Positions 6,071 to 40,950 of a stretch of 64,000 bases of DNA are shown here, piece by piece (the stretch's first letter is position 1; the number at the start of each line of letters is the position of its first letter). Both the position numbers and the translations under genes were made by a program. The notes beneath the pieces were generated by a model. It was not told the origin of the DNA, did not search any database, and saw nothing but the letters and a program-made list of their open reading frames with translations. Source of the DNA: Sarcomyxa edulis (taxonomy: Eukaryota > Basidiomycota > Agaricomycetes > Agaricales > Mycenaceae); contig QUOL01000012.1 in assembly GCA_009761415.1 (NCBI GenBank), positions 573,001 through 637,000 of the forward strand. Reading direction: 5' to 3'.

Positions 6071-6074
6071 GCGT
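6071..6074. other. Target-site duplication, left copy (GCGT)
   Basis: GCGT directly precedes the 5' LTR and recurs at 39743-39746 directly after the 3' LTR. Four to six bp duplications are usual for Ty3-type integrases. This marks one integration event for the whole 33.7-kb unit. Confidence 0.8.
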
Positions 6075-8059: not shown

Positions 8060-8061
8060 TC

Positions 8062-8080
8062 TGGAGCCCACCGCGAGGGG
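8062..8080 (+). other. Candidate primer-binding site
   Basis: Two bases after the LTR the sequence reads TGGAGCCCACCGCGAGGGG. A TGG start directly inside the 5' LTR is the normal place and form for pairing with a tRNA 3' CCA end. The matching tRNA was not identified. Confidence 0.55.
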
Positions 8081-8088
8081 ATTTAAAG

Positions 8089-17213: not shown

Positions 17214-17228
17214 ACTTTCCACCTCTGC

Positions 17229-20050: not shown

Positions 20051-22907
20051 TTAGCGAGAGTTGACCAAGATATTTTTTCGGGCTTCCAGCATATCGCTCA
20101 TAACCCAAGAGATGTCGGACAGTGCAGCCTTCCAGGATGGGTCATTTACTCCAACAGCAGTCCCCCACCAGCCTAGACATGCCAAAACACCAACAAAACT
20201 GTTGATCCCAGGTTTCTCGAGTGTATCCCATGTGTCTTCCATGCCACGTACCCTGGGCCTATCTCCTCGCGCCTTCCGCCAATCCGGCTGAAGCTCATCC
20301 CACCACGACCACCACTGTGTTCCGAGCTCGTGTGCTTTCGCGATTGTAAGATCGGGTTCTCGATTACGCGCCCACTTTATCCACCACGCGACCTCAGCTG
20401 GTCTGTTCTTTGCCGAGAACCTGCATCTTTCACTGTTTGACTTAGCGCTGCCCTCGATTTCCCCTAAATATTGCACGACATCAACCCATTCATCACCAAG
20501 GTCCTTCTGTGCGAGTTTCTCGTGCAGCGGTTGAAGCCATGCAGGGATGGACAAAGTCGAGTTTTTGACGCGTCGATGAACGGGTGCAAGGGCCGGGGAT
20601 GGGGATGAGGACAACGAGCGAGGCCCACTTGCATTCAAGGGAAGAACGGGCGATGGTGAACCGTCTGGTGCATGACGAGAGGCTGAATGAGATGCGGGAG
20701 TAGGCGAGGGAGAAACAGAACGAGGCCCACTTGCGTCGAGCAGAGGTTGGCGCGGAGGAGAGCCAAATGGAGTCGTTCGGCTCACTTCTCCGGGACTTGG
20801 TCTGGTGGGAGAGGGAGAAACAGAACGAGGCCCACTCGCGTCGAGCAGATGTTGGCGCGGAGGGGAGCCAAATGGGGTCGTTCGTCTCACTCTTCGAGGC
20901 TTTGGTCTGGCGGGAGAGGGAGGAATAGAACGGGGCCCACTCGCGTCGACAGGATGCCCGGGTGGTGGGCTGCCTGATGGTGTCCTCGGCAACATCTTGG
21001 CCAGTGCTCGCTGTCTTCGTTTTTCTCTTTGTTGAGGAATCCTCCATCGGCTCTTCAGGACGAGTTTGAAGTCGGGAGAAGGAAGGCGTTTTTTTGGTGC
21101 GAAGGGTAACTTCTTGGATTTCTTTTTGGGGACTTTCCAGTAGTGCCCAGACGAGGAAAAGCCGTAGTCGGAGATGTAGTCAGGATCGTAGGTGTCGAAG
21201 GTGAATTTCCTCTTTTTGCCACTCTTTCCCTTCCCATTCTTCGCGGTCCCCTCGTCATCATTGTCTTCATCGGACGTACCCTTCCCATCCTTCGCGGTCC
21301 CCTCGTCATCATTGTCTTTATCGGACTCAACATCTGAGTCGCGAGATACCGCTTTTCCTTTCCTCGTTCTTTTCTTCCTCCTTGTCTTCTCGACACCGTC
21401 ATCAACACCTCCATCATCTTCCTCATCGGTCGTGTTCTCTGGAGAGGAGTCGGGGCCCTCGGAAGGCTTTCTGCGACCTTTGCGACCTGTACGTTTACGT
21501 TTACGGCTAGTCTTTGGCTTGAAGCCAGACGCTACATCTTGATCTGCATTTTCCGGTTCGATTGTATATGGTGCTTGATCAAGGCCTACTGATGGGCCAT
21601 TTGCGATGTTATCCTCGTCGTCGCTGGTTGATAAACCGGGAACTATATATGCGGCGCGGTCGTTTGCATCTGATGGATCAGGATGAGTCCCGAAGAGAAT
21701 TACATGATGCTAAGACACTTACCATAGCACGTACTCAAATACTGCTGGAATGCCATGGTCACAGCTTTGTAATTCTTCTTGTTGGCCAAATTGAACGTCT
21801 TAGGAGCGGGTTCTTTATTCACGCCAGCATGCATACTAGGATTAACCGTTCAGCAAACGATTATAGCGACGAATGGCTAGATACGTACCTGACGACATTT
21901 ATCTGGCCTCGTGCACTAACTTCAGGCCCGCCAATTAACACCGTAACATGCATTTTCACGAGTTGGGATATCCCGACAATGATTGGAGTGATGAACCCCG
22001 GGAGGCGTTTGAGTATGCTATACAAAGTCCAAGTTAGCTCCAGTCGCGACCAGGTCATGATGTCTACTTACTCGGGTTGCGTCGCAGGATCAAAAGCATA
22101 CTGACCCTTCATCTGCTCCTCCCATAGCTTGACTTTGGCCGCATGCTCAGCCTGGGCAACAACAGCGTGGGCCTCACATTCTTCCTCGGGCAATGCGCGG
22201 TAGAAGTCTCGAGTAAATTCTGCGCGACAGGCGGTCTTCTGCTTGGGATCCTTACCAGACGCTGCCCAGTATTCCTCAAAATCAGCCTTGACGCGCGTCT
22301 GGTAGTACAACGTGGACCAGTGTTGTTCGACCTGGAGCTTTTTTGGGGGTTTTGTACTGACGCCTGTCAGTTGGCTGAGTAGCATGGTCAAAGGATCGTC
22401 GCTTTTCTGAGAAACCATCGAAGAAAGGCCGGAGGCGACGGGGGCTTTTTTGTACCTGTATTCGAACCAGCTCTTTAGGGACTGCGCGTGAGAGTCAGTG
22501 GTGTGGTGACATAAACACAAAAGATATTATTACCTTCTTCATTTTCAAGATTATGGCCCTTTTCTCTTCCTCCTCTTCGGGGGTCAAAGTTTCCGCCTGG
22601 GATGCGGCGTTAGGCTCTGAATTGGCCTGCATGCTATCGGGTTCCTGATCCAAAGGTAATCTCCAGTGGTACCGAGCGAAGTACTGATTGAGCACAGTCC
22701 CAAGAAAATCTGCTGCATGTGTACGACTGCGGAGAGCAGCCACAGAGTAAGCGTCGAGTTTTTTCTCCAAGAACTCTTTGCGGGAGCCTTTGGCCCAGTT
22801 GCGCTGCTGGGGCTGGTCCGGTTTGTCGGGTTTGTCGCTAGAGATTGAATGATTCAATCAGATACTATGTTCAAAAATAGGTTCAGAAACACGGATATAT
22901 ACCTCAT
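20051..22907 (-). CDS. Gene A: transposon-associated protein, basidiomycete family of unknown function
   Basis: The start is probably ATG at 22905-22907. A two-codon first exon (GTATAT donor) joins 'DKPDKPDQPQQRNWAKG' at 22837. Exon 22534-22837 ends 'AIILKMKK'. The next opens 'SLKSWFEYRYKKAP', then 'HWSTLYYQTRVKADFEEYW'. A long middle region is basic/acidic and low in complexity, and a 35-residue repeat follows (see 20705-20990). The C-terminal domain, 'RPAEVAWWIKWARNREPDL', 'WWSWWDELQPDWR', 'GVLACLGWWGTAVGV', is Trp-rich and resembles a domain I recognise from many agaricomycete hypothetical proteins. It is homologous to A' (44105-46515): similar N-terminal 'W....EFL..KL.AY' and the same intron site before a '(S)L..WF' segment. 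It sits in the nested block with B, C and KDZ 2. Function unknown. Confidence 0.7.
20705..20990 (-). repeat. 105-bp coding minisatellite in gene A
   Basis: Period 105 bp, starting near 20711, 20816 and 20921, encoding a 35-residue unit with 'TPFGSPPRQ', 'LLDASGPRSVSPSPT'. Copies are slightly diverged. Confidence 0.75.
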
Positions 22908-23204
22908 TGTTGATCGATCGAATGTTGCAGCCGGGACCAATTACAAGACCTGGGGAACTTGGGGTCTTTGAAATTTCACGGCACGTGAGATGTTCAATCT
23001 GGCACGCGGCTCGATCGCGCTCACCCTACATTGATGGATTTCGAACCCATGTAGTATGTACAGTTTGCATGACATCAAGTGTATGCCCTCAAATTGTATT
23101 ATCCATTTTTTTTGGGAAATTCAACTTTCCCCTATGAAGCTGAATGTAATCGGGAAAGTGGTGTTACCAGTGCTGACAGACTTGAGCAACGAACAAGCTG
23201 TATA
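22908..23204. other. Spacer between genes A and B
   Basis: About 300 bp separating the start of A from the stop of B, both on the minus strand. No gene seen. Confidence 0.4.
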
Positions 23205-23973
23205 TTACAACGGTTCTTGGAAGAGTAATTGTCCGTTACCGTACATAGCCATCAGTTCCTGTACGTCTGCCATTCCATAACATAGAAGTTCCTCCAGAAA
23301 GACGATCACCTCTCGGAAGCGCTTGCAAAGTGAATCCGCACGCTGCCATTGCTGTCCAACGCCATTGAGAAGTAAAGCTTCGTCGCTTGCACGGACGGCG
23401 TCGCCGAGAAACAGTTGTAAGATACTGATTGCGTTTGAGATCGTGGTAGTATCACCGTCTGTGTGATCTGACAGGGTTGCAACGAAAGCGACGTAGACCT
23501 TTTCGGCGTATGTTTTTGCAGAGGGGCGGACAAGCCCGTCCAAGGCGGCCTCGGTTTTGTTGATGCGTGAGGTCAAGCGCTCAGAGGGTGTTTTGGCTCT
23601 ATAAAGTAATGCTGCTCAGTGGACGATGACAGTGACAAGAGTGTGAGTGTGAAGACTTACTCCCACTTGCTAATAGCCGATGTCTTAGTCTGCTTGTCGG
23701 TCTGCGAGCTAAGTGAGTTGACTTTCCTGAAGTGGAGCAATCAGATACGAGGGTTTCCGGTTCGACAGGTGGGAATGAGATACAACAATTTGCTTGTGTA
23801 CTTCATTCGTTTTGCTGCGCAGATTGTTTCGCGGTTGCTGCGAGTCAAGACCAGAATGAATACAATGTCTTGATATAATATAAGTAGACTGACCGGTGAT
23901 AATGACGGTTGCGTTTATCTCTGTTGGCTTGCTTCTTCTCTTCAGGAGTGTGGTAGAGACGAGGCCGAGCCAT
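23205..23973 (-). CDS. Gene B: small basic-headed transposon-associated protein
   Basis: ATG at 23971-23973 opens 'MARPRLYHTPEEKKQANRD', a basic N-terminal signature I recognise from agaricomycete repeat families. An intron in phase 2 falls directly before 'NRETICAAKRMKY', and two more introns (donors GTTGTA and GTAAGT) keep the frame into 'AKTPSERLTSRINKTEAAL'. The last exon is helical ('RADSLCKRFREVIVFLEEL', 'LMAMYGNGQLLFQ') to the stop at 23205. Total is about 195 residues. The basic head resembles a DNA- or RNA-binding element; the tail looks like a helical bundle. B' (40951-42228) shares the head and the same phase-2 intron before NRE. Function unknown. Confidence 0.7.
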
Positions 23974-24475
23974 AAGCGACGAGCGATGAGTGAGGGATGT
24001 GGTTGGAAAGAGGAGATGCAAGGTGATCGAGTTCAAGGTTAAAGAACGAATTTGGCGCTCTCAACTCATTTTTGTCGGACCTTTACTAAAAATACCTTCT
24101 CACTCAGCACTCATGTACAGTTCAGCTATGGGAATAATGCAGAATAGACGTGTCCGTCGTAGAGGACGAGTATTCCTTAAAATCCTCGTCGTATGGTCAA
24201 TTAAACTTGAGTAAATGCATATATCTTCGAGACTGAGACAAGGCACTTATTTATCTGGTCTCTGATTTTGCGGTGGAACACTCAGGTATATAAGCAATGT
24301 TCAACAGATAGCTTATATATATTGTTTAGATGGGGACAGCGATACTACGAGGAACTAAACTATGACGGTGCTGACAAGAAAACTACGGCCCGTTCGAACT
24401 CTCGTGATGCGAGACAATGTCTAGTGCACAAATGGTCAATGTTCGCGCATCACAACAACGAAGGAGAAAGTGTAC
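23974..24475. other. Spacer between genes B and C
   Basis: About 500 bp upstream of B and downstream of C. Only short ORFs; no supported feature. Confidence 0.4.
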
Positions 24476-25213
24476 CTAAGCCAGAACAACAGTCCCTGCA
24501 GCATAGGCTTGGTGCATCAAGACACGGCCTGCGTTGACTGAGGAAGTCTTGACGAAAGTGGCCATGGTTACACCCGAGACGTAGGGGGAAGTTGAGGGCC
24601 TGCAATGATGGATCGTTAGCGTCATGGAAGAATGAGTTAGAAGAACAAAATAATGAGAACAAGATGAAAAGCGTACCAGCTCGAGAAGATTCCAACCGCT
24701 AACCCGCGAGTGACAACATAGAACGGACCAGTGGCTGTAGCGTGCGGGATGTAATAGGCGGTAGGCTGATCTGTGCCTACTACAGTGTTGGGGGCGTCCT
24801 CGAGGGGGGTAGTAGGAGGAGGAGGGGGAGGGGGAGGGGGAGGGGGAGAAGGGGAAGAAGGAGGAACAACGGGGGGAGATGAGACAAGGGTCTTCCTCTC
24901 ATCATCATCTTCGTCGCCGGCGACTGAGTCTCCCAGATAACCAACATCCACAAAGTCCCCATCTTCGAGGGGAGGGTGACGAGTGACAATGTCGATAGCG
25001 TCGATGAGTGCAGCCGCATTGGCGGGGCTGAGAGTGACCCTTGAAAGGGCTTGGACCAAACGCGCTTGAAAAGAGTAAAATACACGTTAGTGCTGATGCG
25101 AGAGGGTGAAGAAAAGGGTTTGTACCAAGAACCTCGTCGCTCTCTACACCAGATGAAGCAGGATGGGCTCCAGTCGGGGCAGAGGACGATGAAGAGACTC
25201 GATCAGCAGTCAT
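24476..25213 (-). CDS. Gene C: RNase H1 N-terminal (viroplasmin-like) domain protein
   Basis: ATG at 25211-25213 (MTADRVSSSSSAPTG). A first intron follows 'VESDEVL'. The middle exon has a helical part 'NAAALIDAIDIVTRH', an acidic stretch and a polyproline run. It then has 'GPFYVVTRGLAVGIFSSW', and after an intron splitting the Trp codon, 'PSTSPYVSGVTMATF' and 'VLMHQAYAAGTVVLA', stop at 24476-24478. The 'YVV.RG...GIF..W' pattern is the hybrid-binding N-terminal domain of RNase H1 / caulimovirus viroplasmin. The last strand-helix is divergent, and the RNase H catalytic domain is absent. Known members bind double-stranded RNA or RNA-DNA hybrids; that role here is inferred. C' at 42692-43840 carries the same domain at its C-terminus. 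Confidence 0.7.
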
Positions 25214-26058
25214 TTTTGATGAGAAAAAAATTAGGGTGTGAGTGTGTTCAAATTTGAGAGAGAAGGGAGCTGAGGATGGACTGAACTCATCGAGAACTTT
25301 ATGGTCATTTTTTGACGTTGGAAGCCACGTCGAAGAAGTAAAGTAACCTGTCAAAACGAGTACTCCTCTTGCTAAAGTGCATCGGAATGTTCGGTTCGGT
25401 CGGGGATCGTATTACCCGGTCCCATCCACGTTGAGTTTTGCTCATTGTTCCCTGCCTTCACCTCTTCTTCATTGTCCAAATACATGCATCCGTTTGTTCA
25501 CATCAGACCTCCAGACAACCTCAGCACTTCTTGGGCGGATCCATTCCCGACGTTGACCAGTCTGAAAAAGTCTGATAAGCCCTCGAGACCATCTCGCCTT
25601 ATCGCAGCATGTCGTCGTCTTTGTCTGTCGCTAATACCCGCACATTCCGTGAATCGACTCCCGGCGTCCACCACTTCAGGAAACTCTGACAAGTCTTCGA
25701 GAACACGTATCAAACGAATCTGCATTATCGTCGTCTTTTTGGTAATAATATCCGCATGCACTCTGTCTGCCCTCGTTTGCGCCCCTTCCTGCCGTTCCCT
25801 TCAAGGTGATCCAATGCTCCAATTGATGATGAGTGTACCTCAGTCTTGCTTACTAGGTGAGTCCCTCGTCTCTCTAAGGTTTTGCACAAGGTTTTGTGAA
25901 GTCTAATTCTGAATTTACAAGCCTCAACCGTGTTCGTTGTATGTATATTACTACTATACTCTGCAAGTATTTATATGGACCTACAATCTCCTATCGATGT
26001 CTCGGTTCAGTGGACTCTACTCTCTCGATTTCTCCTCTGTCGTGATTCCCTATATCGC
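25214..26058. other. Divergent intergenic region between gene C and KDZ 2
   Basis: Shared upstream region of C (minus) and the KDZ transposase (plus). A plus-strand ORF at 25445-25906 has one hydrophobic stretch and a loosely repeated segment, but no start context or homology I can support. Probably promoter sequence. Confidence 0.4.
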
Positions 26059-29000
26059 ATGCCTCGTCCCCCTAAGCGCGATGTCCTTGAACTCTTTCGA
26101 GACAGCCTCGATGACGACGACGATCCTGTCATAGATATAGACATGCCCCAAGCCCGTTCGGCTCGTATGTCAACAGATGGCCAACGGATGCTAGTGACGC
26201 CTCGTTCGCCCATGAAACAAGGTACCAGACGTGTCGTCCCGGCTCCTGAGCTGTTTGCAGGATGGGAGGGGTACGGGGAGTTCGACAACTTTGGCGGGGA
26301 TGATGAAGACGAGACAGATGCTGCAGTTGGCAGTATCGTGTCGGTCCAAATGCCGGCAAAGCGCTATCCTGGTTCGGTGAGTCAATTCGCTTTCTTCTTT
26401 TTATTTCATCGTCAATCTTGACAATTTGCTGACAACAGGATTACCCTTTGCGCGAGTGGGCTGGATTCAGACCCGGAGAGGACGGTTACCGCCAGGAGTT
26501 TCTATTAGAAGACATACGTCGCGACGGCCGTGGAGATGCTCGCACCAATGAGACCTGTCCCTCTTGCCCTGCGTTGACTGCTCCTAATCCAATCGCCGAC
26601 ATTCCACATTTCCGCTGCGACGAATGTTTCGGTTCTATCATTGAGTGCCTGCAATGCTGCTTGAACCGTCACAAGCGTCTGCCTTTCCACCAAATCAAGG
26701 TATGTTGAGTGCCTTTCTCAATATGTAACATCTTCGATCTAATCATGCTCGACTCCAGCACTGGAACGACAACTTTTTCGAACGAACCACGCTCCAGAAA
26801 ATGGGACTACGAGTACAACTTGGGCACGACAATCTGTACTGCGTGAACCCCAAGCCGGGTCATCAGGATTTCACGGTTATACATACAAACGGCATTCATT
26901 ACGTTGCCGTTGATTTCTGTGACTGCACCACAGTCTTTTCTCACCGACAGCAGCTTCTACGTCATGACTGGTTTCCGGCTACTGTCCATAACCCCCAGAC
27001 TTGCTGCTCAATCGAATTGCTCCAGTTATTTCATGTGCTCACTTTGGCGAGCAAGGTTTCCGGGTACGAATGGTATAACACGCTCGAACGACTGACGGAC
27101 CACACGGGACTGGATATTCCCAAAGTTTGTCTGACAGTTCTTCTTTTCTTTACTCTGATTTTCAAGATCAGTCGTTTTTAGTCGCGATACAAGTCCGTCA
27201 TGCAATGTGTCAGGATGTTCAGACATCTCAAGCTATTGAAGAGATCAGGTCGAGGAAATGTGGAAGATGGAGTCCTCAGTACAAAACCCGGAGAGCTTGT
27301 GTTGCTCTGCCCGGCGTGCCCAGATCCCAACCGGAACCTGCCGCCCAACTGGAAAGATGCCGAAGCTGCATTGACGTGAGTCTGTCCTACCATTTTGTTT
27401 CAATTTTCTCTGACACGTCCATCAGTTTCCTCTACTCTGTGATATATGCCCTCGATGCTAATTTCAGACTGAAGAACAGGCTTCGGTCTAGCGATAGGGC
27501 TGACCCAGGGCTTCACACTGGTTTATCGTATTTCGTAGACGACGCTCCTTACCACTCCCATGTATTGAAGTATGCGACACAAGAAGATGTAACTGAGTTC
27601 TAATTTTAGTGTACAAATATTTGCACAGCTGACTTTGAAATCAGATCAGTACGTGTAGTGGGTTCAAGACTCTAGCTCACGCTGAGAGCAAGTTTTCGGC
27701 GGGTATGCGCTCGACGGGGGTCGTTGCTTGCATATGTGCTCGTCACGAATTTGTTCGACCCCTTGGAGTTGGTGATTTGCAGAAAGGCGAGCGGTATGAG
27801 GTTTTTCACTCGTTTTGAACATAGAGACTGACGAGTAACTTGTATCTAGATACTGTAACGTGGATTATGTTTTCTTATCTGCCATCACTCCTGTTCTTCT
27901 CCTTTACCTCGTCGCTTCCTACAATATCGCCTGCCAATGGAGAATCAATCTACCAAGTCGAAACTCCGAGATGCCTGAACATTTGCAGCTTCCGGACGAG
28001 ACTCTCGAGAACATGCGATATGGTGTGCCAAAGTTCCACGGTCCAGCCCACGAACTCAAATGCCAGGTCCCGTATTCCTTGAATCTGATGACCGGAGTGG
28101 GTAGAACGGACGGGGAGGGCATAGAGAGGAATTGGTCCCAGATCAACCCTGTTGCGAGCAGTACGCAAGAAATGGGACCAGGCTCGCGCCATGACACGTT
28201 AGACGATCATTTTCATAACCATAACCATCAGAAGCTGGTGACTATTGGTATGTATATATTTCCAGATTTGCTTCTAAATACTGACCTCATACGCAGGCGA
28301 AACTTTACGAAGAAAATTACTTCTTGCCATACCTGAACGCAACCGTCAACGCGCTGCCCACGAGGAGTTCACAGCATCCCTTCCTTCTCCATCCCCCGAG
28401 GTGCAGTGGACGAACGAGATACTCCGATGGGACGCCGACCATTCCAACAAGAATCCCTATGTGACCGAAAAAACTTGTTCGTCTTGCTTATTTATCTCTA
28501 TTGCACCGATCTAATTTTTTTTTGAGTAGCCTTGACTCAAGCCGACGTTCGAAGACAGCTCATGGTGGAAGAACAGCAGGCAGAACGGGCTGGATCCGTT
28601 CCCATGCACGACACAAGTGCGAGTGGGTTTTTAAGCACAGGTCTGATGCTCGAGGAGTCGCAGTAAGTCGTCAATCTATATTGCCTTGGAAATATGGCTG
28701 ATCTATTGTTCAGACGTCGCATTATAGCCGATTCAAAGGCCCAGGAGATTCTGACCGCTGACCAGACCGCCAAGCTACAGAACAGAAGACACACACTTCG
28801 AAAGCATATTGCGCGCTTTCGTCCACTTCAAACGGTGTACATGCCTGGTATTGGGATCAAGATTGCTGCAGAGGGTCGAGAAGGTGAGGAGGCACCAGCA
28901 GTCGAGTTCATTTGTCTATGGCTGCCGTCTGCGTTGACAAGGGTCGAGCGGGAGAATGTCTGCAGGGAGGGACTAGGAGAGATGGAAGAGAAGTTACGAG

Positions 29001-29901
29001 AAGCGCAATGCAACGACGCGCTCAATCTCCTGCGATCCACGCTCCGTGCAAAGGCACATTTCATCACGCACAAGAACCTCAACGTTCGCAATCAACGTCG
29101 ATCAACCCGGGCACAGATTCTGATCCAGGGACTTGCCATGAAGGCTACCGCTGCTGGTCTCAAGTATACTCATGCACGCAATGCGCTATTAGGATTGAGA
29201 GGGGCTGGTGAGTGGGAGAATGTGCTAAAACCCCTACTGGAGAAGGATATACGGCTGCCCGGGCAGGCTGAGTTCACCATTGAGAATCTTGACGACGCGA
29301 TAGGTCCTTCAGGAAGGCATACCTCAAAGAAGAAGCGGGACGAACGTGCAAAGGCGCTAGGCGAGGGCCACCGTCTCGTTTCATGGATCTGGATATCGGG
29401 TGTCGTCGCAGAGGCAGAGTCAGGAGCGGTCGAAGCAAGGGAACTCAACGACGGTATGTTGCATTCCATATATCTTCTATCTCCAGTCGTCTTATGTCGT
29501 TTACAGCTCTACGAGTAGAATGGGCCAAAGGTAGGGCACGAGCACTGCGGTGGACGGAGGAGGTTGTGTTGCTGAAGGAGGAGATGCGGCGCGTAGAGGT
29601 CACACTGGAGTGGCAAGCGAAGTGGTGGGAGGACAGGTCCACAGGTTGGGACGGCGTCGACGACGCGCTACGAGAAGGCCTTCGGGCATACACATTTCGA
29701 CAAGCTCACATCCAACGCTCTCTGCGTGCACGATTTATGGCGAAATGGGCCGATCCCTTGTTGCAGATCAGTGTAGACGTGGCCGTAGCAAACGACAGCC
29801 TCTCGTCTGGAGGTGAGGTTGGTGAGGAACCTGAGGCTGCTATAGGAGAGGGCCCTGATGAGGATGCCGAAGCCGCCGATGACCTTGACGATGTATGGTA
29901 G
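26059..29901 (+). CDS. KDZ transposase 2, complete
   Basis: ATG at 26059 (MPRPPKRDVLELFRD). About ten exons join without frame problems. The CxC2-like cluster reads 'CPSC', 'FRCDECFGS' and 'CLQCCLNRHKRLPFHQI', followed by 'FFERTTLQKMGLRVQLGH' and 'NGIHYVAVDFCDC'. The catalytic region includes 'FVRPLGVGDLQKGER', 'NVDYVFLSA', 'SYNIACQWRINLPS', 'GVGRTDGEGIERNWSQIN' and 'GPGSRHDTLDDHF'. The long C-terminal helical region (28694-29518) continues to 'DLDDVW', stop at 29899-29901. All blocks seen in KDZ 1 are matched and no stop or frameshift interrupts them, so this copy may be active. It lies inside a young LTR element, so it arrived after that element or was carried within it. Confidence 0.92.
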
Positions 29902-30440
29902 ATACTCTGATTCTGATTTACGATCGCTCGTGTATTTGACACTTGTATTCTATGGAGATAACATAACAAATATCACAGAATCTCAACTCTCGATGTTAGC
30001 AGTGTCCTGGATTTCCGCTTTTGGACATGTACATGGCTTCCCATCTCGATTTGGACCGGGCCGAAGGTGACCCGAGGGCTTAGCAGGCCAGCAAGAGTTA
30101 GCATGTAGGTATTGCCGTGAGGTGAGCCTAAAAAGGGAATATTCGGAGGCCCAGTCCGGCCGTTAGGTGGCGCCAACGTCTATAAACAGGCTTATTGATT
30201 TGGCCGGCACTTGCCACGGGACAAGGCAAATAGTTTTGTGGCGATTGCCAGGAGATTAGGTCTATGACTACAGCCAGCATTAAAATTATGAACTGACTTT
30301 TTAATTAACTTTAGAATCGGCTGGCCTGGCGACTAGGAGCGGATCGGCAATGAGGGTTTTCCCTAGGACCGCGGCGCGGCAACCTTTCCCGACTGCCTGA
30401 CGGACCGGCGAGACCTGGCCCTCTGGCATCAGGTACATCA
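29902..30440. other. 3' flank of KDZ 2
   Basis: GC-rich, gene-free sequence after the transposase stop. It may include the terminal region of the KDZ element, but no inverted partner was recognised. A TTGCCACGGGACAAGG-like motif near 30212 loosely recalls 19084-19106. Confidence 0.35.
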
Positions 30441-30469
30441 GGAAAATGCTCTTTTCCCTAGGGTACCCT

Positions 30470-30690
30470 CAAGGTAAGTCAGACTATCTCAGGGTTTCTC
30501 AGACCATCTCAGGGAACTCAGGGCTCCAGGGTACCTCGGGGGCCCTAGGGACAAGTTACCTGAGCCAAACCTTGCCAGGGTGGCCTGGAGCATCTCAGGG
30601 TATCTCAGAGCTACTTCAGGGTATCTCAAAACTACTTCAGGGTATCTCAAAGCTACTTCAGAGCAGCCCCAAAGTAACTTAGAGTCTTTC
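30470..30690 (+). repeat. CAGGGTATCTCA repeat cluster
   Basis: Repeated units of about 21 bp, e.g. CTACTTCAGGGTATCTCA at 30610-30660, with degenerate copies before. Similar words occur in the other orientation near 32340-32410. Confidence 0.65.
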
Positions 30691-30834
30691 AGATCTATGG
30701 AGAGCAACTTAGAATCATCATATCCCTTACATGCAATTCAAGTTTTGTTCAAATAAAATATATATTAAGTTCTCAATACATCATAACTATGTAATACAGT
30801 AGATAATAAAGAACAGAAGAAGAGGGGGGAGGGG

Positions 30835-31580
30835 TATAATTCAGTGAGGACAGGTGGAGAAAGATGAGAAAAAAGTGGGGGGAGAAAGGGGTAAGGGGAG
30901 GAGGGGGAAGGTAGGGAGAGGTAAATAGAGGCAGGGGAAGGCAGGGGAAAGGCAGGGAAAGGCAGGGAAAGGCAGGGGAAAGGCAGGGAAAGGCAGGGGA
31001 AAGGCAGGGGAAAGGCAGGGAAAGGCAGGGGAAAGGCAGGGAGAGGTGAAGAAAGGTGGAGGAAGGTGCAAATAAGGTGGGGGGAGGTGGGAGAAGGTAT
31101 GGAGAGGTAAAAAAAGCTGGGGGAAGGTGACAAGAGGTGAGGGAAGGTGACAAGGGGTGGAGAAAGGTGATAAAAGGTAGGGGAAGATAGGGAGAGGGGT
31201 AAAAAAAGCTGGGGGAAGGTGACAAGAGGTGAGGGAAGGTGACAAGGGGTGGAGAAAGGTGATAAAAGGTAGGGGAAGATAGGGAGAGGGGAAGAAAGGT
31301 GGGAAGAGGTGGGGGAAGGTGCAAATAAGGTAAGCAGAGGTGGGGGAAGGTGAACAGAGGTGAGAGAAGGTGTAAAAAGGTAGGGGAGGGTGGGAGAAGG
31401 TAGGGAGAGGTAGGGGGAAGTAAAGAAAGGTGGGAGAAGGTGCAAACAAGGTGGGGGAGATGGGAAAAAGGTCAAGGAAGGTGAAAAAAGGTGGGGGGAA
31501 GGTAAGCAAAGGTGAGAAAAGGTAGGGAGAGATAGGGAGAGGTAAAGAGAGATGAAGGAAGGTAGGGAGAGGTGAAAAGA
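30835..31580. repeat. Purine-rich (G/A) minisatellite
   Basis: About 750 bp of almost pure purine on the plus strand. It includes GGCAGGGGAAA units of 10-12 bp at 30910-31045 and an exact tandem duplication of 92 bp (31115 to 31207). The long minus-strand ORFs across it are low-complexity artefacts. Confidence 0.85.
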
Positions 31581-32075
31581 TATGGCAAAAAGATGCAAAT
31601 AGAAAGAAAAAGATGCAACATATCTTTCTTCCCTGTGTCCTTCCTTTGCCATCTCTGAGCTCTGCATCTTCTAGGTTATTGGTAGTGTCTAGAAGAAGGA
31701 TATATCAGCAGAAAGGATACAGAAAGAACCATACCAATAGCAGCAAAAATGACAGCAAGATTGCCATGTCACCAATTGCTGTGCTCCAGCTTCTTCAAAG
31801 AGCGGATTAGTAAGCCAAGATAGCTAGGAACACTGGTCTTGAGGGTGTAGATGATAAGGGATTAAGCAAAAAAAAGAGGGAGGAAGGAAGGAGGAGGGAG
31901 GGAGGAAGAAAGGTGATGAGCTGGCAGCCAAAGTTCGCTTTTGGTGTGACGTGACGCCATCACATGTGCAATGTCACGTCACACAAAGAGCGAATTTCTC
32001 CTAAGTCCAAAAGGTGTGTTGTGTCCACAGGCCCGCTCCAGGGACATATGCGTATCATGGAGCCAAATATTTAGA

Positions 32076-32158
32076 GGTCTGTGGACTAATGGTTAAGTGC
32101 TTGTTTCGTTGATGTCTCGTGACTTTCTCGCAAGGTTATGAGTTCGATTCTCGGTGGA
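32076..32158 (+). repeat. tRNA-like segment (possible SINE head)
   Basis: 'TGGACTAATGGTTAAGTGC' resembles a tRNA A box and D loop. 'GAGTTCGATTCTC' 50 bases later fits a B box and T loop with a closing GAG/CTC stem. The acceptor and D stems do not pair well, so it is not a convincing functional tRNA. Confidence 0.4.
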
Positions 32159-32402
32159 TTCATTTATTTTCTCTATTGTTTCAGTTACTTGCAATGTGTT
32201 TTTGCCATGTTTCACAAGCATTTTCAATGGTCTGTGAGAGCATGTCAGGCTGTCTGAGAGAACCCCAGGGAACCATCCATTTCCAGGGTATTTCAAAAAG
32301 CTTTCAAACAACCCTCAGAGCATTCGAAGCTATCAAGACACCCTGACATACCCTGAAATACCCTGAAATACTCTGGGATGCCTTGAGATGCTCTCATGTG
32401 TC

Positions 32403-33268
32403 TCAGATCATCTGAGGGAAAAGGGGTTTTTCCAGATGTATCAATGGCCGACCGAACGTATTGTTGGTGCCGCTCGAATTGCGAACAGGTGCGGGAACCG
32501 CCCCGTGTAACAGTACCTCTTCGTGTCCATCCTTTGTGGGGAACTGGCGCACGTATGGGAGAAAGGGCATTCCGGGATCAATCGTTCCAGGATCGACTTG
32601 ACCGATCGCCTTCGACTTAAGCAAGTCATTTATCTGTCTTTCCTTCATTCCCTCATCGGCACCATACCGTGCGAAAGTATCCGAAAAACTATAACCCTGG
32701 AAGTCGATGGCGGACGATGCGTATCCGGGCTTGAAGTAGGCAGAGATCAGTAAGGCCGATTGGTCATAGACAGCTTTGGGCATACCTGGGCTATAAGATC
32801 GCACTTCAACCCGTTTAACAGAAAGCCGACATTTCTGACATTGACCCCTACATAATCACCTTCGAAGCCGAACTCCCGAATAAAGTATTCGAGCATGGCT
32901 ACCGAGAGAGTCGCCTCGGCAGGAACGTCGACTGTCCGCCAATCCCCCGCCTGGATCGCTTGAGCGATTCGTAACTTCATAGCTTGATGCTGAGCATTGT
33001 CGCTCCTCAGTATCAACAAGGGAAGCGCCTGGATACTGGATCGGCTTACAACATGATTAATCACTTTGGCGATAACGGTTCTTATCCAAAGGCGTTCTTC
33101 AATGGCAATCGCGCTGGTCGCGCGGTCGACGGTCGATAAATGAACAATGCCTAGAAGGTGCCGAATCGAGGCGGACCAAAGGGTGGCCATGTCTTGTGGA
33201 GGAGCGCCCCTGGTGTCACTTGGGTCCTCTGCGAATTTGTTCGCCGATAAGCGAAGTAAAAATGACAT
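32403..33268 (-). CDS. Antisense paralogue G6 of the retroelement cargo family
   Basis: Three exons with agreeing phases: 33050-33268, 32786-32989 and 32403-32729, about 249 residues from ATG 33266-33268 (MSFLLRLSANKF). Exon 1 ends 'RTVIAKVINHV'. Exon 2 opens 'HQAMKLRIAQAIQAGDW', then 'VDVPAEATLSVAMLEYFIR', which carries the family's VPxEA motif right after the shared intron. The 60-nt intron is a multiple of three, so the frame is also open unspliced. The last residues ('EKPLFPQMI') are encoded by sequence of the nested block, so the native C-terminus has probably been cut off. The sixth and most left-hand copy of the array. Function unknown. Confidence 0.6.
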
Positions 33269-33313
33269 CGCGGTACAGGGATTTTTGAATCAAGACCGGG
33301 TTACACTCTCTAT

Positions 33314-34051
33314 TTATTCGAATTCAGTGTCGCTCACGCCTGGGTCGTCCTCGGACGATACTCCGTTCGGGGCCGGCCACATCTCGTAAGAATCCGATTG
33401 ATCGCCCCAGCCGTTCCCCTCGTCACCATTCATTTCGTATCCTCCATCGGTTCCCCAGGCACCGAACCGATCGGCCGCTACATCGTAGTCTGGCGATGCC
33501 TCGCGAGCGAAGCCGTATTGAGGCCAGTCGAAAGGGTCTGTGGCTTGGCTGTAGTTGAGAGCAGCCAATCGGCTAAGCTCAACAAGGATCTCTACCGATC
33601 TCTCCCTCCATGTATCGCTGCCCTCAAAAACGAATTCGGAGCGATCGGCTGCCCTCCATATAAGCCGTAGATCGCTTAGCATCTGACCGGACTCGGATGG
33701 TACCCGGTTCTTGTTTAAATCGGCATCTGAGACACGGTTGCGCGCGTTCCAGAATACAATCTAAAAAACTTGTCTAGGTCAGAAAAGGGCCGATCGAGGG
33801 CCGATCGGCATACGCACCAACAGTTTCATGACCGATCGAATGGAGCTGGCAAAGGATGTGCGATCGACCTCAGAGAGGGACGGGAACTCGCCACTTGGGT
33901 CGAGTACGGGAAAGATTTTGGATGCGACAAGGCCGATAATGGGACGAAGGTACCGACGAAGGAAGCGATCGGCACTCTCATCGTTACTGATCCAATGGAA
34001 GCTGGCGTCCTTGACGAGAACGTCGAGTATGGCTATACTAAGGGGGTCCAT
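33314..34051 (-). CDS. Antisense paralogue G5 of the retroelement cargo family
   Basis: Exons 33818-34051 and 33314-33760, phase 0, about 226 residues from ATG 34049-34051 (MDPLSIAILDVLVKD). The shared arginine segment reads 'FLRRYLRPIIGLVASKIFP'. After the intron comes 'NRVPSESGQMLSDLRLIW', a variant of the (I/V)PxEA motif. The C-terminal third is acidic and Tyr/Asp/Gly-rich, ending VSDTEFE. No transmembrane segment or known domain. Stop at 33314-33316, 46 bp before the start of G6. Confidence 0.62.
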
Positions 34052-34335
34052 GTATGGTCTGCGATATTGACAGCAGTCGGTCGCGATGATATTGCTCTTA
34101 TACTCGACGCCGAACACCTCGAATGGACAAGATCGGCCGATGCTGTGAAAAAAGATTCGAGCCGATCGGCTGTGAAATCGTTTTTATTTCAAGTATATCG
34201 TAGAGCGAGGCTATCGACTCTGCTCGCCCCTCGCCGACATTGTACCGCATGATATGCCGATCGCTGCTCCAGCTAGGACATCGCCCTCGTTTCGTCACCT
34301 AATGCGTTATCTCCACGCTCTTTTGGCTTTCTCTT

Positions 34336-34870
34336 CTACTGGTATCCGGGATAATCGACTTGTCCGTTTCCCCTGGCAACGACATGCCGCGTGTAAAATG
34401 CAAAGCTCGCTGTCATATTCCGAAAAGTTGTAATAACGGTCGAAGATAGGCCGAGGGAATCTGCCTGGGCAATTAACAAGAGATGTGCGCGTGACCCCAT
34501 GTTATGCGCTTCGGTTGGGATGCGCACGGTGTTGCGGAGTCCGCTAGCAACTGTGCGCGATCGGTAATCTAGGATGAGGGCCTGCTGTGCATGAGCGATC
34601 TTCTCGAACGATGGATCGACACTGACCTACCAAGTGCGCGAGGAATCTGATGAAATGTGTACGAGCGACAGATAGTGCGGCTTGCGCGACCATAGCATCT
34701 GAATGAAGGTTGATACTGGCGGTGTTGTATTCGCGCTCTATCAGGTAAAGCATCGGGCGGAGCCGATAATGAAGGAATCCGTGAAATCCCTCAATCGGTA
34801 CGAACGTCGGGATGAAGGAGGACGATGGCAAGGTTAACAGGGCAAATTCTGTCGCATTATTGGACGCCAT
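34336..34870 (-). CDS. Antisense paralogue G4 of the retroelement cargo family
   Basis: Exons 34627-34870 and 34336-34568, phase 1 intron, about 158 residues from ATG 34868-34870 (MASNNATEFALLTLP). Arginine segment 'FLHYRLRPMLYLIEREYN', then 'HFIRFLAHLV' before the intron. After it comes 'NTVRIPTEAHNMGSRAHLL'. One of the shortest members; ends in 'DYPGYQ'. Helical, with no known domain. Confidence 0.62.
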
Positions 34871-34923
34871 TCCTGAACAATGCTGAAGAGTACGTTATTC
34901 TGGCGATCCAACTACAGGTCCTT

Positions 34924-35609
34924 TTATAGTTGCAACTTGTCAATCTCGATCGGCACGCGAAAACATGGATCGGCCGCACCTTCAGTTTGGAACGCGCCGA
35001 TCGGTACGCCATGTATTGCATTATCTAGTGGCCAGCCTCCCTTGTCGTACCCCTTGAAATCTGCAAACGTCTGCTCGGCTATCTTTCTAACCTCGACCTC
35101 GTCCAACATGTCTCTGACTATTTGATAGGCGATAGGTGTCCTAGTGGGAATGCAAGGTTCACCGTTGAGGCCGATCGCTTGAATGAGGCCGAGGATTGCC
35201 CTCAACATATACTGAGCCTCGACGGGAAGGGTCGGCATAGGCTGGCCGTCGCTGCGTTTGTGACGTCTGATCTCTTGGACTGCCGCCTGAAGCCAGAAAA
35301 GTCAAAAGTCGCGCTCGGCTTCCTTGTCCTGATCGCTCGACGCACCAGGATTTCAGTTATTTGCTTAACCATCCACCGGGCGTTGTGGACGCCTTGGTTC
35401 TCCTTCATCTTGTAGAGATCGCTTCTCGTCTCGGGCAAGGGCAGGGGCACGACGGCAGCGATATAGGCTAACAAAGGGCGGACGTGCTCCGCAAGGAAGT
35501 TTCTAAGCTCGTTTTCTGATCCAAGGTTTTGCCGATCGGGTAGAGCAACTTGGACAAATTGCTGTATCTTCAGGTTACCTTCAAAGTTCCACTGCTTTGA
35601 CGATGCCAT
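34924..35609 (-). CDS. Antisense paralogue G3 of the retroelement cargo family
   Basis: Exons 35346-35609 and 34924-35286, phase 0, about 208 residues from ATG 35607-35609 (MASSKQWNFEGNLKI). Arginine segment 'FLAEHVRPLLAYIAAVVP', then 'MVKQITEIL' before the intron. After it 'AAVQEIRRHKRSDGQ' and 'LPVEAQYMLRAILGLIQ', then 'VRKIAEQTFADFKGYDKGG'. Stop at 34924-34926, 54 bp before the start of G4. Confidence 0.62.
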
Positions 35610-35960
35610 TACGAAGGATAGCGGAGATCGTCGTATCTATAGGAGATATACGAAAATTTTTGAAGCACCACCGCATGTTTGGACCTGTGGGGCTTTGTGG
35701 ACGCCACTGCCGCTCGATCGCGTCGCGTGTCCTGGACTGGCTCAGGTAATTATTCCACGATTATTCCAACTGAGAGGTATCTACGAGATCCCGTCACCTG
35801 CCGTTGGGTCGACATCTTTCATCTAATCGTCTACCTCTCCTGCCTGGACTCTCTCTCCTCGACTGTGCGGCCGATCGTCTCTGTTTTTTTTTCGCAACGT
35901 TTTAGTCAAAGGGTCACAGGAGAAAAGCGATCGCTTGCCGGTTCCGGTATTGGTAGAATT

Positions 35961-36510
35961 TCAGCCTTGATCAAAATCAGGATATTGGCCATGGCCGATC
36001 AGTGTCCTGCCCAGTTCCTCTGCTTCAGCTTTCAGCTTCCCCAAGAGGGCTACGTAGAAGTTGTTCGCGTCGTCTTTCCAGTCTTCATAGAAGCCGACTC
36101 TGTCTATGACAATCAGGGCTCGTTCGAGCATGATTGTCGCCTCGGCGGGAATTTGCCGATCGACGGTTCCTGTATCGGATACTGTGTTTTCTCTGTGATC
36201 GATTATCATGGCCTTTACCAGCGGTTAGCTCCCCTGCAGAACGTTTGAAGAGGACTTTTCGACGCACGATGTTGGATAAGAAGAACGCCATGAGATGGCG
36301 TGGAACGCTATACTCCGCGATCGGGTTGAACGACGTGGTCGGCAAGAACATCACCGGGTGCGGTAGGATTCTCTCTATAATACTGAACATTGGTCGAAGG
36401 CGGTGCTCGAAGAATTCAGGAATGGTTTCGCGTGCTGCGACGCTGGCCGATTGGTCGATACGAACGTACAAAGAGAAAAACTCCGTTAGGAGAGAGTGAT
36501 TGGGATTCAT
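35961..36510 (-). CDS. Antisense paralogue G2 of the retroelement cargo family
   Basis: Exons 36219-36510 and 35961-36169, phase 1, about 166 residues from ATG 36508-36510 (MNPNHSLLTEFFSLY). This copy shows the family pattern most clearly. 'FFEHRLRPMFSIIERILP', then 'RHLMAFFLSNIVRRK', then the intron, then 'IPAEATIMLERALIVIDRVG' and a helical tail. A shorter intron using the acceptor at 36180 would also keep the frame. Stop at 35961-35963. Confidence 0.62.
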
Positions 36511-36791
36511 TCTAACGGGGATTTTTCACGGCACGGGAAGGCGCTGTATTCTAGATATCAAGCCATTCCTGGCCGACCTTTATACCAACTACGGATTGGA
36601 AATCCGGCTTTTTCCATGGAATAGTTTTTTTTTGTGCCCCCGATCGGCTACCTCTCCCTTCCAAGAAACCCTCTCCCCGAAGGACCGATTGCAGTAACCC
36701 CTTTTCAGCCGTTCCGTGCGACCACTAGTCGCGGCATTCCGTCTTCGGCACTTGCGATTAGTTGGGCAATCCCTTGAGAAACATTAGTCAT

Positions 36792-37604
36792 TTAAACCGC
36801 GGACCGGCGGTGAGCGTTCCACTCACGAGCTGTCTCTATGTCTGTCTCCCGATTCAGAGATGGCCTGTCAACTGCTTCTTCCCCTTCGCGAATCTCTTCG
36901 CCCATCTCTGTATTGCTGTCAGTGGCGACGGTTCCCTCTTCTTCCCGTCGGCCCGGGAAAGGTAGAGTGCGACGTGCGACCTGCAGATTGGTGTGTAGAA
37001 TTTCGCCAGTAAGGCTAATGCGATTGCCGTATAGTCTTGGTTGAAACTCCTCGATGGCCGCACATAACATGTTCGATGGATCGGCCTCCATGTAGTCCAA
37101 GTTTACTCCCGACCGAGATCGACGCGCATACAGCTCTAGGAACTGCAGATCACTGTATATCCTACTAGCCTCTTCCACTAGGGTATCGTGTGTGAAACCA
37201 ATGACATACACAAATCGGCGAGTCAGGACAACGAGCGCTGTTGCTTCTGTGGGGATTGGCTCCTTGTTATCGCGATACCGATTTTCAATGGTCCAACGCA
37301 GGCGGAGGATAAATGACTACAGTGCAGGGTTAGCTTCGGGTCCTGGTGTTCGACCGACTGTGCTCACTAGGTGATCGCATATAATCCGAACGTGCTTACG
37401 AATAACTTCTAACCCACGCGGCGTAAATTCTTCATGAAGTTCGTTGCCGATCCTGTCCTGGAACAGTGTACAGAAGACGATGTTGACCATGGACCGGAGA
37501 TTAACGCGTAGATACCGACGGAAAGTATTTTTCGATATTTCGGGGTCGATACCCTCCAGGTCGAGTGAGAGGTCAGCAAAAAGCTCTGTAGCGACGGAAT
37601 CCAT
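36792..37604 (-). CDS. Antisense paralogue G1 of the retroelement cargo family
   Basis: Exons 37368-37604 and 36792-37316, phase 0, about 253 residues from ATG 37602-37604 (MDSVATELFADLSLD). Arginine segment 'FRRYLRVNLRSMVNIVF', then 'IRKHVRIICDHL' before the intron. After it 'LRWTIENRYRDNKEPIPTEA' and 'TRRFVYVIGFTHDTLVEEA'. The C-terminus is longer than in the other copies: basic, then acidic. The start is about 155 bp from the 3' LTR, so an antisense LTR promoter could drive the array. Confidence 0.62.
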
Positions 37605-37742
37605 GATGAGCGGCGTCTACTTCGTGATCGGCCTGCCGCTTTTATGCGTACCACAGGACCCTCGGGACCCCGGCGATTGCCCTCTGGTCCTCTGCCTACG
37701 GGTTCCCTGATCTGGTTGATCGACCGAGGACGGTCGATGTTC

Positions 37743-37758
37743 AAAAGTTAGGATGGAG
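37743..37758 (+). other. Weak polypurine tract before the 3' LTR
   Basis: AAAAGTTAGGATGGAG directly precedes the LTR, where plus-strand priming occurs in LTR elements. The two T pairs make it imperfect. Confidence 0.4.
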
Positions 37759-39742
37759 TGTGAGGATGTGAACATCCCTAGCCTGCGACATCCTAGTTCC
37801 TATCCATTTCATGAGTACGAAGACATTTAACCCCATACCGATCTAGGTTTCTCCCCGAAAGACCATCCCTCACCTACCCGCTCAGTACTGCGTTCACGCT
37901 TTGACGACTTTCCTCAGCCATTACCCCTGTATTCCCACAGATGAAGAGTTCAACCAGTCACCAGAAAAAATTAACGACAGTCTAGAAGAAATCACGACTG
38001 AAGTTTCCAATAGACGACTCCACGACTCCTAAAAAGATCCCGTCTGTCATACAGTTACCCATGAACTCCCTGCCAAAACGCATTTTCCTCTGGAAATACC
38101 GATCGCCCAATCCACACACACGCTCCTATCACTCCTTGTACCTTGCGCCCACACGTACCTGGTGGCCTAGCCTATCACTCCTGATACACAATTCACGAAC
38201 TTCCCTATCTATCAGCCGATCGGTCGCCGAAAGGATCCGAGACCTGGCTATCGCTGCCGACAATGTAAGACCAAGGCCTATCCTATGAATTCGAATTGGA
38301 ACGTTGCCGATCAACTTAGTAGGAGGCCAAACGCGATCGCTTTCTGTAGAAGGTTCGGTTACAAAGTCAGCCGACACTTATCTTGGTCTAAGGATTCGAA
38401 CGCGCAACAGACCGATAATATGCACCAACCGATCGGCCGACACTTATCTTGGTCTAAGGATTCGAACGCGCAACCGACCGATAATATGCACCAACCGATC
38501 GGCCGACACTTATCTTGGTATAAGGACTCGAACGTGCGACTGACCGATCCTATGCACTGACCGATCGGCCGACCTAGTCATCCAGCAATTTCAAGTTACG
38601 GATCTTATCCGTGCAGATGACACGCATGTGTAATGCCATTCGACGCGACATGCTGTCCCAGGAGTAGCCGATCGTCGTTTCCATCCAATGATTCGAACCC
38701 GCGACTGACCGATTCTATGTGCTGACCGATCGGCCAACCTAGTCACTCGGCAATTTCAAGTTACGGAACTTATCCATGCAGATGATACCATGGCCGATTG
38801 GCCGATCCAATTAAACGGCCGACCAGTTTATCCCGGCTTAAGATTTCGAGCGCGCGACCGACCGATCCTTTGCACTGGCCGATCGGTTGACCCATTCACC
38901 AAGCGATTCTAAATTATGGATCTATCAAGACAAGATGAAGCATATGTGTAACACTATTCAACGCGACATGCTGTTCCAGGAACGGCCGATTGCCGTCTCT
39001 ACCCAAGGATTATGGCTCGTAGCCGACCGATTCCAAGAATTGGCCGATCGACCGATCCAGTAAAGCGGCTGATTCGGTAGGAAATTCGCCAAAGACCGAC
39101 ATAGCGACAATAAGGGGTTGCCCTTCGACACAACCGATCGCAAACGAAAAGTCTGCATTCGAAATACGCTCTACCAATTTCAACGGACATCTCCCCGGTG
39201 GAACCAATATCCGGTTCGTGCTGCGTGCATCGTTCTTTATCGGAAATAGGCCTCGAGGGGTGGAAAGGCGAACCCCTAATCGCAGGAGGCGATGAATACT
39301 TATACCGGACTTGTAAAATACATTACGGTAGCTACGGGTAGACCCCCCCCCATCTCTGTACGAACAAAATAATCAACAAACCCACTATCTACAAGGAGAA
39401 GTAGCTCACTTCTCACCTTTTAACGAATTGCTCCGACCGATCGCCTTTCTGAAATCACCCAAATCCGAACAAACTATTGCTGCGACCATAAACCGATCGG
39501 CTAAGTCGTTCGCTCCCAGTTCCTTTACCTCTAAATTCGAGAGGGCTTCCTCTCGTCGCGTTATAATTCTCACAGAGGTCATTTAGACCTCTCCATTATA
39601 TTTACTTATAAAATCCTCGAGCATATAGGTATTACCGTCAAGTACAAATCCCCTCAAATAAACGTCACCTAAACCCTTAGTGGACGAACTACTGTTAGGT
39701 TGCAGAAACTATTTCGCACCTAGCGCCGCAGTCCTCATCACA
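37759..39742 (+). repeat. 3' long terminal repeat (1984 bp)
   Basis: Near-identical to 6075-8059 (five substitutions, one C-tract length change). Same TGTGAGGATG start and CCTCATCACA end, followed by the GCGT duplication. Confidence 0.95.
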
Positions 39743-40950
39743 GCGTGCCTATGGTAAGGCTCAGCGTACAAAGAACTACAGAAAACCAGGCGGCGATACA
39801 GGCAAACAGAAAGAAAACTCACCAACAAAAAGTGGGGGGGAAATCGGTGCAAGAAAATGATTTGACCCAGCAGTATTCTTAAGCTATTTCGTTTATCAAA
39901 CACCTTATCCCAATCGAGCGATGATCGGAGAGCGTGCGGAGGGTCCGATCCACAGATGAAGAGATATGAAATGCGACGGAGAGAAATCGGCTGGCGGAGT
40001 TACCTCTTTGAGCTCATAGAATCGTCCACGTGACTGTTCGACGCGACGCGATTGACAGAGGTCTGTTCGCGATAAGACTGGATTTCACGAGAGTGGGTAC
40101 TTATTGAGACAATAGCAGCACACCAGAAGCTGTGTATATATATCCCTGACTATATATCAGGATCTGGGAGAACACGGGAGACGTCACGAATCTACGATCC
40201 CATATCTATACAAAATATTCTTGAGATATGTTCGCGATATATGGATGTACACTTTGCACCGGAAATCCAAACACGAATACTAGGGTCGTAAGTAATGTAT
40301 ACTGCAATCTCCAAATGCTATGTGAGTCCTCAGTTGCCAGGGATAAGTACTGCAATGCATGGCCACGTAGAATGATGCACAGGAAAGGCCTTATGTTCGC
40401 GATATTATCGATTTTTGTATTCGCCGCAGGCAGTCTAGTAGTCAGACTGATTTATTTGCAGTACGAATGTGTAAAAGCAGCCAATGAACATACATCCAGA
40501 TATCCCAAAGGGTTTATTAATAAGGGCTAGGATGTTGCATTTTTGTCGAGGACTCAGATTGAAGCATGCGCACTTACCTGTCCCTTATGCTCTTCTCCGC
40601 CAAAATGTGCTCTTCGGTCAAAACGAGTAAGCTCAACGATTTGAGCATTGACATGGCCATTCGTTATGTAGATTCGTAGACTGTAGAGATGATCAGGAGA
40701 CAGTGTACGACCGCATAGTGGTAGACCAGTGTACAAATGTTCACGAGTTGTTCGCGATATTCATAATTTGTGTGTTTTTAAAAGGAGTCTAAGTGTGTTT
40801 CAAAGTCTGTGGTAAGCTTCCAGGTTGAACTGAAATCCATTTTGAGGCGTCCAACAGACTTTGTCGAGACGTCGAAGAGGACAGAGATCTTGTTCGGGGC
40901 TCAAATTGGATCACGCGCCACACTCGTTACTCACACTCGTCCATGTCAAA
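39743..40950. other. Right flank of the retroelement with a phased 10-11 bp motif
   Basis: Begins with the GCGT duplication (39743-39746). A candidate minus-strand exon at 39823-39877 (GTGAGT donor at 39822, acceptor CTTAAG at 39878) would fit the TET/JBP gene. GTTCGCGATA(T) occurs at 40065, 40230, 40395 and 40750, and twice more in gene B'. Plus ORF 40228-40530 and minus ORF 40554-40736 are unsupported. The latter ends at a good GTAAGT donor, so it could be an upstream exon of a minus-strand gene. Confidence 0.45.

Follow-up and report, generated by a model that had tools for sequence, protein, structure and literature searches.

Six antisense paralogues as probable accessory genes of a Ty3-type retrotransposon in Sarcomyxa edulis

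Retrotransposons with long terminal repeats (LTRs) are usually thought to need gag and pol alone, and conserved accessory genes are known mainly in two settings, retroviruses and certain plant elements that have antisense open reading frames (ORFs). In human T-cell leukaemia virus (HTLV), an infectious retrovirus, the antisense gene is HBZ, which is driven from the 3' LTR. Plant Retand elements of the Ty3/Gypsy type carry antisense TRP28 ORFs of unknown function in a long region between pol and the 3' LTR; these ORFs are reported to have no similarity outside transposable elements, and a regulatory role is suspected (PMC11963269). Antisense ORFs between pol and the 3' LTR are also reported for Grande (gene23), RIRE2 and others, and Grande gene23 has its own promoter (PMC7264820). 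In fungi, a survey of LTR elements describes Ty3 elements that include 'complex' ones with many additional domains, and attributes the latter to multiple insertions into one locus (PMC3248453). Here we analyse 64,000 nucleotides (nt) of Sarcomyxa edulis (the window; positions 573,001 to 637,000 of contig QUOL01000012.1, assembly GCA_009761415.1), which contain an LTR retrotransposon with six minus-strand genes, G1-G6, between pol and the 3' LTR.

We consider it probable (roughly 0.7) that the array genes are accessory genes of the Ty3-type LTR retrotransposon that encodes them, and that they would be transcribed and spliced and would serve the element. From the available descriptions, the closest known counterparts are the antisense genes of the plant Retand and Grande elements. 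Retand and the fungal element both have antisense coding sequence in the stretch from pol to the 3' LTR, but Retand belongs to plants and carries mainly TRP28, often with tandem DNA repeats (PMC11963269), whereas the fungal element has six paralogues and a cysteine-cluster gene, with an intron at a conserved position and, in most genes, a TATA box. We would call the fungal element Retand-like in layout and, its host being a fungus, do not file it as a member. The available text on Grande and RIRE2 mentions no paralogue array and lacks the word 'intron', whereas the fungal element has both (PMC7264820). In HTLV, likewise, an LTR element has an antisense accessory gene (PMC7264820, PMC11963269), a likeness drawn by description. 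Unlike the array described here, the fungal survey does not bring up antisense genes, the word being absent from its main text as available (PMC3248453). No fungal case of an LTR element that carries such an array of antisense paralogues was found in the literature searched by titles and abstract openings, a search that leaves most subscription literature outside and does not prove absence.

All six genes lie on the minus strand where the preliminary description had placed them, and their frames are open once GT..AG introns are removed. The introns are all of phase 0, in agreement with the earlier statement that splice phases close in every copy. G1 (36792-37604) has exons at 37604-37368 and 37316-36792 around an intron at 37367-37317, and would encode 253 amino acids (aa) with an acidic tail. 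The predicted products of G2 (35961-36510, intron 36267-36213), G3 (34924-35609, intron 35345-35287) and G4 (34336-34870, intron 34630-34582) are 164, 208 and 161 aa long, and that of G5 (33314-34051, intron 33817-33761) has 226 aa and again an acidic tail. One intron per gene, as originally proposed, holds for G1-G5, whereas G6 (32403-33268) has two, at 33049-32990 and 32785-32730. The first of these is the homologue of the other genes' intron and is easily overlooked because it is 60 nt long, in frame and free of stop codons; its counterpart in a sister family of the element (family B) is frame-shifting, an argument for the intron being real. The proposed end of G6 at 32403 has to be abandoned, as it falls inside a nested insertion that begins at 32438, where the native sequence stops; in the seven other full copies of the window's own family (family A) G6 encodes 278 aa with a basic tail. 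The genes have in common an LRPM-like segment in exon 1 and the motif [IVL]P.E[AS] after the intron, and we add a further common motif, [DEQ][YFW]..[YFDE], which lies past the last helix and was absent from the preliminary description. Tail charge is preserved across orthologues, being acidic in G1/S1 and G5/S5 and basic, R-rich in G6/S6.

Homology among the genes was assessed with 11 proteins, G1-G6 of family A and S1, S2, S4, S5 and S6 of family B. When each was scored with a leave-one-out profile from which its own orthologue group had been omitted, ten (G1-G6, S1, S2, S4 and S6) gave 19-49 bits, and none of 1,000 shuffles of each of these proteins, which preserve composition but not helical pattern, reached the real score. 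A profile of all 11 proteins run against 630 six-frame ORFs ranked the 12 array exons at the top, a match by construction; the informative part is that the best non-array ORF scored just 8 bits. In a protein alignment built blind to intron positions, the common phase-0 intron falls at column 95 in nine of the 11 genes; in the other two, G5 and S5, it is at column 96, next to a gap. Because of the profile scores and this single alignment position, we regard G1-G6 as homologous paralogues with one common intron position, the relatedness that had been proposed for them. Identity between paralogues is 16-30%, and between positional orthologues it is 46% (G1/S1), 32% (G2/S2), 30% (G4/S4), 31% (G5/S5) and 53% (G6/S6). 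At least groups 1 and 6 were clearly distinct before families A and B split; the orthology of G4 and S4 rests on position, G4 being equally near to G2 (30%).

The element that carries the array is bounded by a 5' LTR at 6075-8059 (plus strand, TGTGAGG...CATCACA) and a 3' LTR at 37759-39742 (plus strand), both located by blastn self comparison. Flank inspection places the 4-bp target repeat GCGT directly 5' of the 5' LTR (6071-6074) and again after the 3' LTR (39743-39746). The LTR pair is 99.7% identical, with 5 mismatches in 1,985 aligned bases, and set against the low identity of the paralogues this bears out the earlier view that the array is old or fast-evolving relative to its near-identical LTRs, which are young. 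The gag frame (8041-10644 from stop to stop, plus strand) matches the Pfam aspartyl protease families PF13975 and PF13650, with DUF4100 slightly under the cut-off. In the pol frame (10631-14347 from stop to stop, plus strand), Pfam finds RT_RNaseH at 506-637 and then the integrase zinc domain Integrase_H2C2 at 812-866; the same scan of pol gave no match for the reverse transcriptase core or the integrase core. Judged by its paired LTRs with TG..CA ends, the GCGT on either flank and a protease, RNase H and integrase in Ty3-type order, the element is a Ty3-type LTR retrotransposon. Its length without two nested insertions is 20.4 kb.

A DNA search of the organism's own 35.6-Mb genome found eight array copies of family A, including that of the window (98-100% identity), and one fragment at a contig end; two further matches of 37-39 bp lie almost wholly within a nested insertion. 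The sister family B, with a pol 83-84% identical to that of family A, carries S1, S2, S4, S5 and S6, arranged and oriented as in family A, with a cysteine-cluster gene after them. It comprises at least 26 full-length array copies, plus partial ones, and six were used for the analysis of frames and selection. Genome searches with G1 and G6 match loci of A-level or B-level identity exclusively, and at E-values up to 10 none of the three genes searched (G1, G3 and G6) finds anything beyond A- and B-type loci, so that a host homologue was rejected for these three. A degenerate G3 in family B was considered and likewise rejected: the matches are at chance level alone, and the 1.06-kb gap varies by 0.058 per site, like most other spacers. 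Two distant pol families, L030 and L031, were considered as carriers of the array and, in the single locus of each that was inspected, gave chance-level tblastn matches alone.

The frames of the array are kept open in nearly all copies examined. Across the eight full copies of family A, 48 of 48 genes have an open frame of equal coding length (window G6 over its native part), and the introns vary, that of G5 being 57, 60 or 61 nt long. There are no gaps in 3,766 coding columns as against 14 non-coding gap intervals (12 in spacers, 2 in introns), and 39 synonymous changes stand against 31 non-synonymous ones, a ratio of non-synonymous to synonymous variation (pN/pS) of 0.24 (p = 5.6e-9). The six copies of family B give the same picture, with 30 of 30 frames open, no gaps in 3,416 coding columns versus 8 non-coding intervals, and 90 synonymous versus 25 non-synonymous changes (pN/pS 0.085, p = 2.7e-35). 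The signal is uneven among single family-A genes, with pN/pS of 0.37 for G1 (15 changes), 0.58 for G2 (9) and 0.56 for G4 (8). For family-A gag the corresponding value is 0.16, from an average of 2.8 compared pieces, and for pol it is 0.15, from an average of 5.3; the pol pieces contain indels in some copies. In the genome search with G6, exon 2 of G6/S6 is matched without a break at 8 of 9 A-type loci and at 30 of 31 B-type loci. Taken at the level of sequence, the array is clearly under protein-level purifying selection, and the low within-family ratios do not indicate positive selection.

A TATA[AT] box lies 35-85 bp upstream of the ATG in nine of the 11 genes, compared with 6-8% of positions (p = 5e-9), an interval that was set after the promoters had been inspected. 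In the window the boxes, all on the minus strand, are TATAAAGG upstream of G2 (36577-36584), TATATCTC upstream of G3 (35643-35650; counted, a poor TATA box), TATAAAAG upstream of G4 (34921-34928), which overlaps the stop codon of G3, and TATAAGAG upstream of G5 (34095-34102). Two TATA-like sequences were not counted, CATAAAAG upstream of G1 (37639-37646) and AATAAATAG upstream of G6 (33310-33318), the latter overlapping the stop codon of G5. Together, the TATA boxes and the private introns suggest one transcription unit per gene.

We propose that each G gene would have its own RNA polymerase II promoter on the strand opposite to gag-pol, and that its transcripts would be spliced and translated into small helical proteins. 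The introns would survive reverse transcription because they are antisense and hence unrecognised in the sense genomic RNA, which carries their complements alone. The G proteins would have a common core and differing tails; since the tail differences are kept in orthologues, we infer that they are non-redundant partners, probably in a mixed oligomer. They would act in trans for the element, either regulating its expression or replication or counteracting host control. Such a regulatory or counter-control role is our first choice within this explanation, with a structural role second, but as an account of what the proteins do it is put forward tentatively.

Protein searches returned five public relatives: P0001, which is G2-like (66% identity), P0002, G6-like (70% over 73 aa), P0005 and P0006, S5-like and listed under group 5 (98% and 62%), and P0007, G3-like (55%), which is clear by BLAST although its profile E-value is as weak as 0.28. 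Beyond these, the preliminary description had recognised no family, and we agree: searches of Pfam, NCBIfam and PDB sequences found no relative above chance. The single Pfam match was Gp38_E217 (E = 0.056), in one of the six and again in one of the 11 proteins, NCBIfam with its prokaryotic models matched none of the 11, and the PDB sequences gave no match to a G protein at E ≤ 10. Structure models of read-through rows are all-helical at a predicted local distance difference test score (pLDDT) of 51 and mostly helical at 64. A fold search with the pLDDT-64 model found generic helical bundles alone in the PDB and viral libraries; with so weak a model the absence of anything more specific is uninformative, and we claim no fold.

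Several observations, besides the promoter interval chosen after inspection, weigh against the proposal that the array is a set of spliced accessory genes. The five public relatives have one exon each, and the four of them that match exon 1 continue past the donor site and so lend splicing no support. S5 is weakly recognised by the other groups, with a leave-one-out profile score of 6.0 bits that one of 1,000 shuffles equals. No counterpart of G3 was found in family B, a genome search with G3 matching just the eight A copies; not every member would therefore be needed everywhere. Nor do the 10 kb that follow pol in the related elements L030 (51% pol identity) and L031 (43%) hold a clear array, with one locus each inspected by tblastn and ORF lists, and Ty3 elements can therefore live without the array. 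The ORFs are present in the other copies of the element, with one exception in family A: a one-base insertion frameshifts G6 in the ninth, partial copy at a contig end (C5). In family B, exon 2 of S6 is split in one copy (C25). Set against 38 unbroken loci, these two breaks leave the argument as it was. Finally, between families A and B the synonymous sites of the G genes and those of a 330-nt pol tail are alike near saturation (pS 0.72-0.83), whereas pN is 0.34-0.53 in the former and 0.07 in the latter, a much faster change in the G genes. The G genes thus evolve quickly over long times yet stay constrained; the rapid long-term change fits host antagonism, without proving it.

Other explanations of the array have to account for the same evidence. 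The proteins could be structural, as extra virion or nucleoprotein components in a mixed oligomer with Gag, and the predicted helical core, the retention together of several non-redundant paralogues and the R-rich basic tail of G6/S6, which could bind RNA, are all consistent with this. We nevertheless think it unlikely. The gag frame, one of the 630 ORFs in the profile scan, is dissimilar to the array and not among the 25 best listed, on which ground a duplicated Gag was also rejected; separate antisense promoters would leave the ratio to Gag without obvious control, and the fold search returned nothing specific, though at such model quality this is of little weight. We give little credence to a further possibility, that the whole antisense block came from a virus or a different mobile element and still serves an old function there, such as its own replication. 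Neither a polymerase nor a helicase domain occurs in the pieces scanned with Pfam, no viral fold was matched (by a mediocre model) and a pol query against viral contigs matched nothing, whereas the compactness of the genes and the overlap of two promoter boxes (G4, G6) with the stop codon of the preceding gene do recall viral or plasmid blocks; also in favour is the lack of a host homologue for G1, G3 and G6, the three genes searched.

The preliminary description had spoken of a cargo gene family expanded inside the element, with conjectural roles in packaging, silencing suppression or host manipulation. A family is indeed carried and kept there, but 'cargo' is too weak a word, since selection suggests that the element uses the genes. 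Passive cargo in the strict sense, that is, host genes captured as in gene-capturing LTR elements or Helitrons, would explain why introns and individual promoters resemble those of ordinary host genes; it seems distinctly improbable to us, because protein-level selection and synteny over near-saturated divergence would be unexpected, and because G1, G3 and G6 match nothing outside the A- and B-type loci even at E-values up to 10. As to RNA, antisense transcription may regulate some LTR elements (PMC7264820), and the frames of the array might be incidental to such a function. With pN/pS ratios as low as those of families A and B, coding indels absent from the aligned copies, and introns and spacers free to vary, that idea is already contradicted by protein-level constraint and can hardly be right. 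Element-encoded accessory proteins thus remain our preferred reading.

A further antisense multi-exon gene (15664-18266, minus strand) carries a cysteine cluster, CX2CX8CX7CX2CX6C, whose spacing we take to be Gal4-like. The likeness of this gene to Gal4-type Zn2Cys6 regulators is confined to that spacing, and no Pfam family, Zn_clus included, was matched at E ≤ 0.1 in three pieces. It too is under constraint, pN/pS being 0.22, 0.22 and 0.10 for three pieces of its exons; indels occur at some positions in two of these pieces. Family B has a cysteine-cluster gene in the same place (L028, about 2034-568, minus strand, by eye), and the A and B genes are similar in sequence at chance level.

Two nested insertions interrupt the element in the window; both are absent from the seven other full family-A copies, and one partial copy was also compared. 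The first (about 19016-30282) is flanked by the 7-bp target repeat AAATTAT and contains a plus-strand multi-exon gene at about 25.9-29.9 kb, which we take to resemble CxC2/KDZ transposase genes; the single piece scanned had no Pfam match. The second (30436-32437), which cuts G6 short, is about 2 kb long and consists mostly of purine-rich tandem repeats. Sequences 64-80% similar to it occur in locus L030, and it is therefore probably an independent repeat family. Within the LTRs, tandem copies at 6683-7257 and 38367-38941 contain GATTCGAAC-like words that by eye recall a minus-strand tRNA T-arm or B box; ARAGORN, run with the bacterial code, found no tRNA there and no tRNA gene in the window, and no RNA family was found in 32000-40000. 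Palindromes of the CCGATCGG type appear strikingly common, by eye and uncounted, over the element and its LTRs (6075-39742).

A 17-nt LTR end common to families A and B, and perhaps to others, occurs 85 times in the genome and is followed by the primer-binding site (PBS) in 32 cases and by NCG in 52. Thus 52 of the 53 non-PBS ends abut NCG; in the window flanks, CG accounts for 5.6% of dinucleotides. Since duplication may have given some copies the same flanks, these 53 ends are not independent events. All eight family-A 3' flanks inspected are NCG, and in C12, the sole other copy with both flanks inspected, the 4-bp repeats read ACGG and TCGG, a difference of one base. The integration target would appear to be almost strictly CpG, and nothing of the kind was found in the literature, searched by titles and abstract openings with the limit noted above. 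Several array copies (G000:C16, C9, C5, C23 and others) lie a few kb to about 15 kb from contig ends, which may mean that the assembly breaks at repeats or else that the element prefers chromosome ends or centromeres. A bolder proposal would unite these features: at least seven individually promoted, intron-bearing antisense genes, six of them encoding subunits of a new helical family, would form a mixed machine that evades silencing or steers CpG integration. We regard this as doubtful.

A fungal element that keeps six antisense paralogues, of which five occur in two families, would offer a new model of retrotransposon accessory functions. The array is also a potential model for how introns come through reverse transcription and, in fungi, perhaps for counter-silencing. 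Many of its copies are young and open, and expression and function are therefore directly testable.

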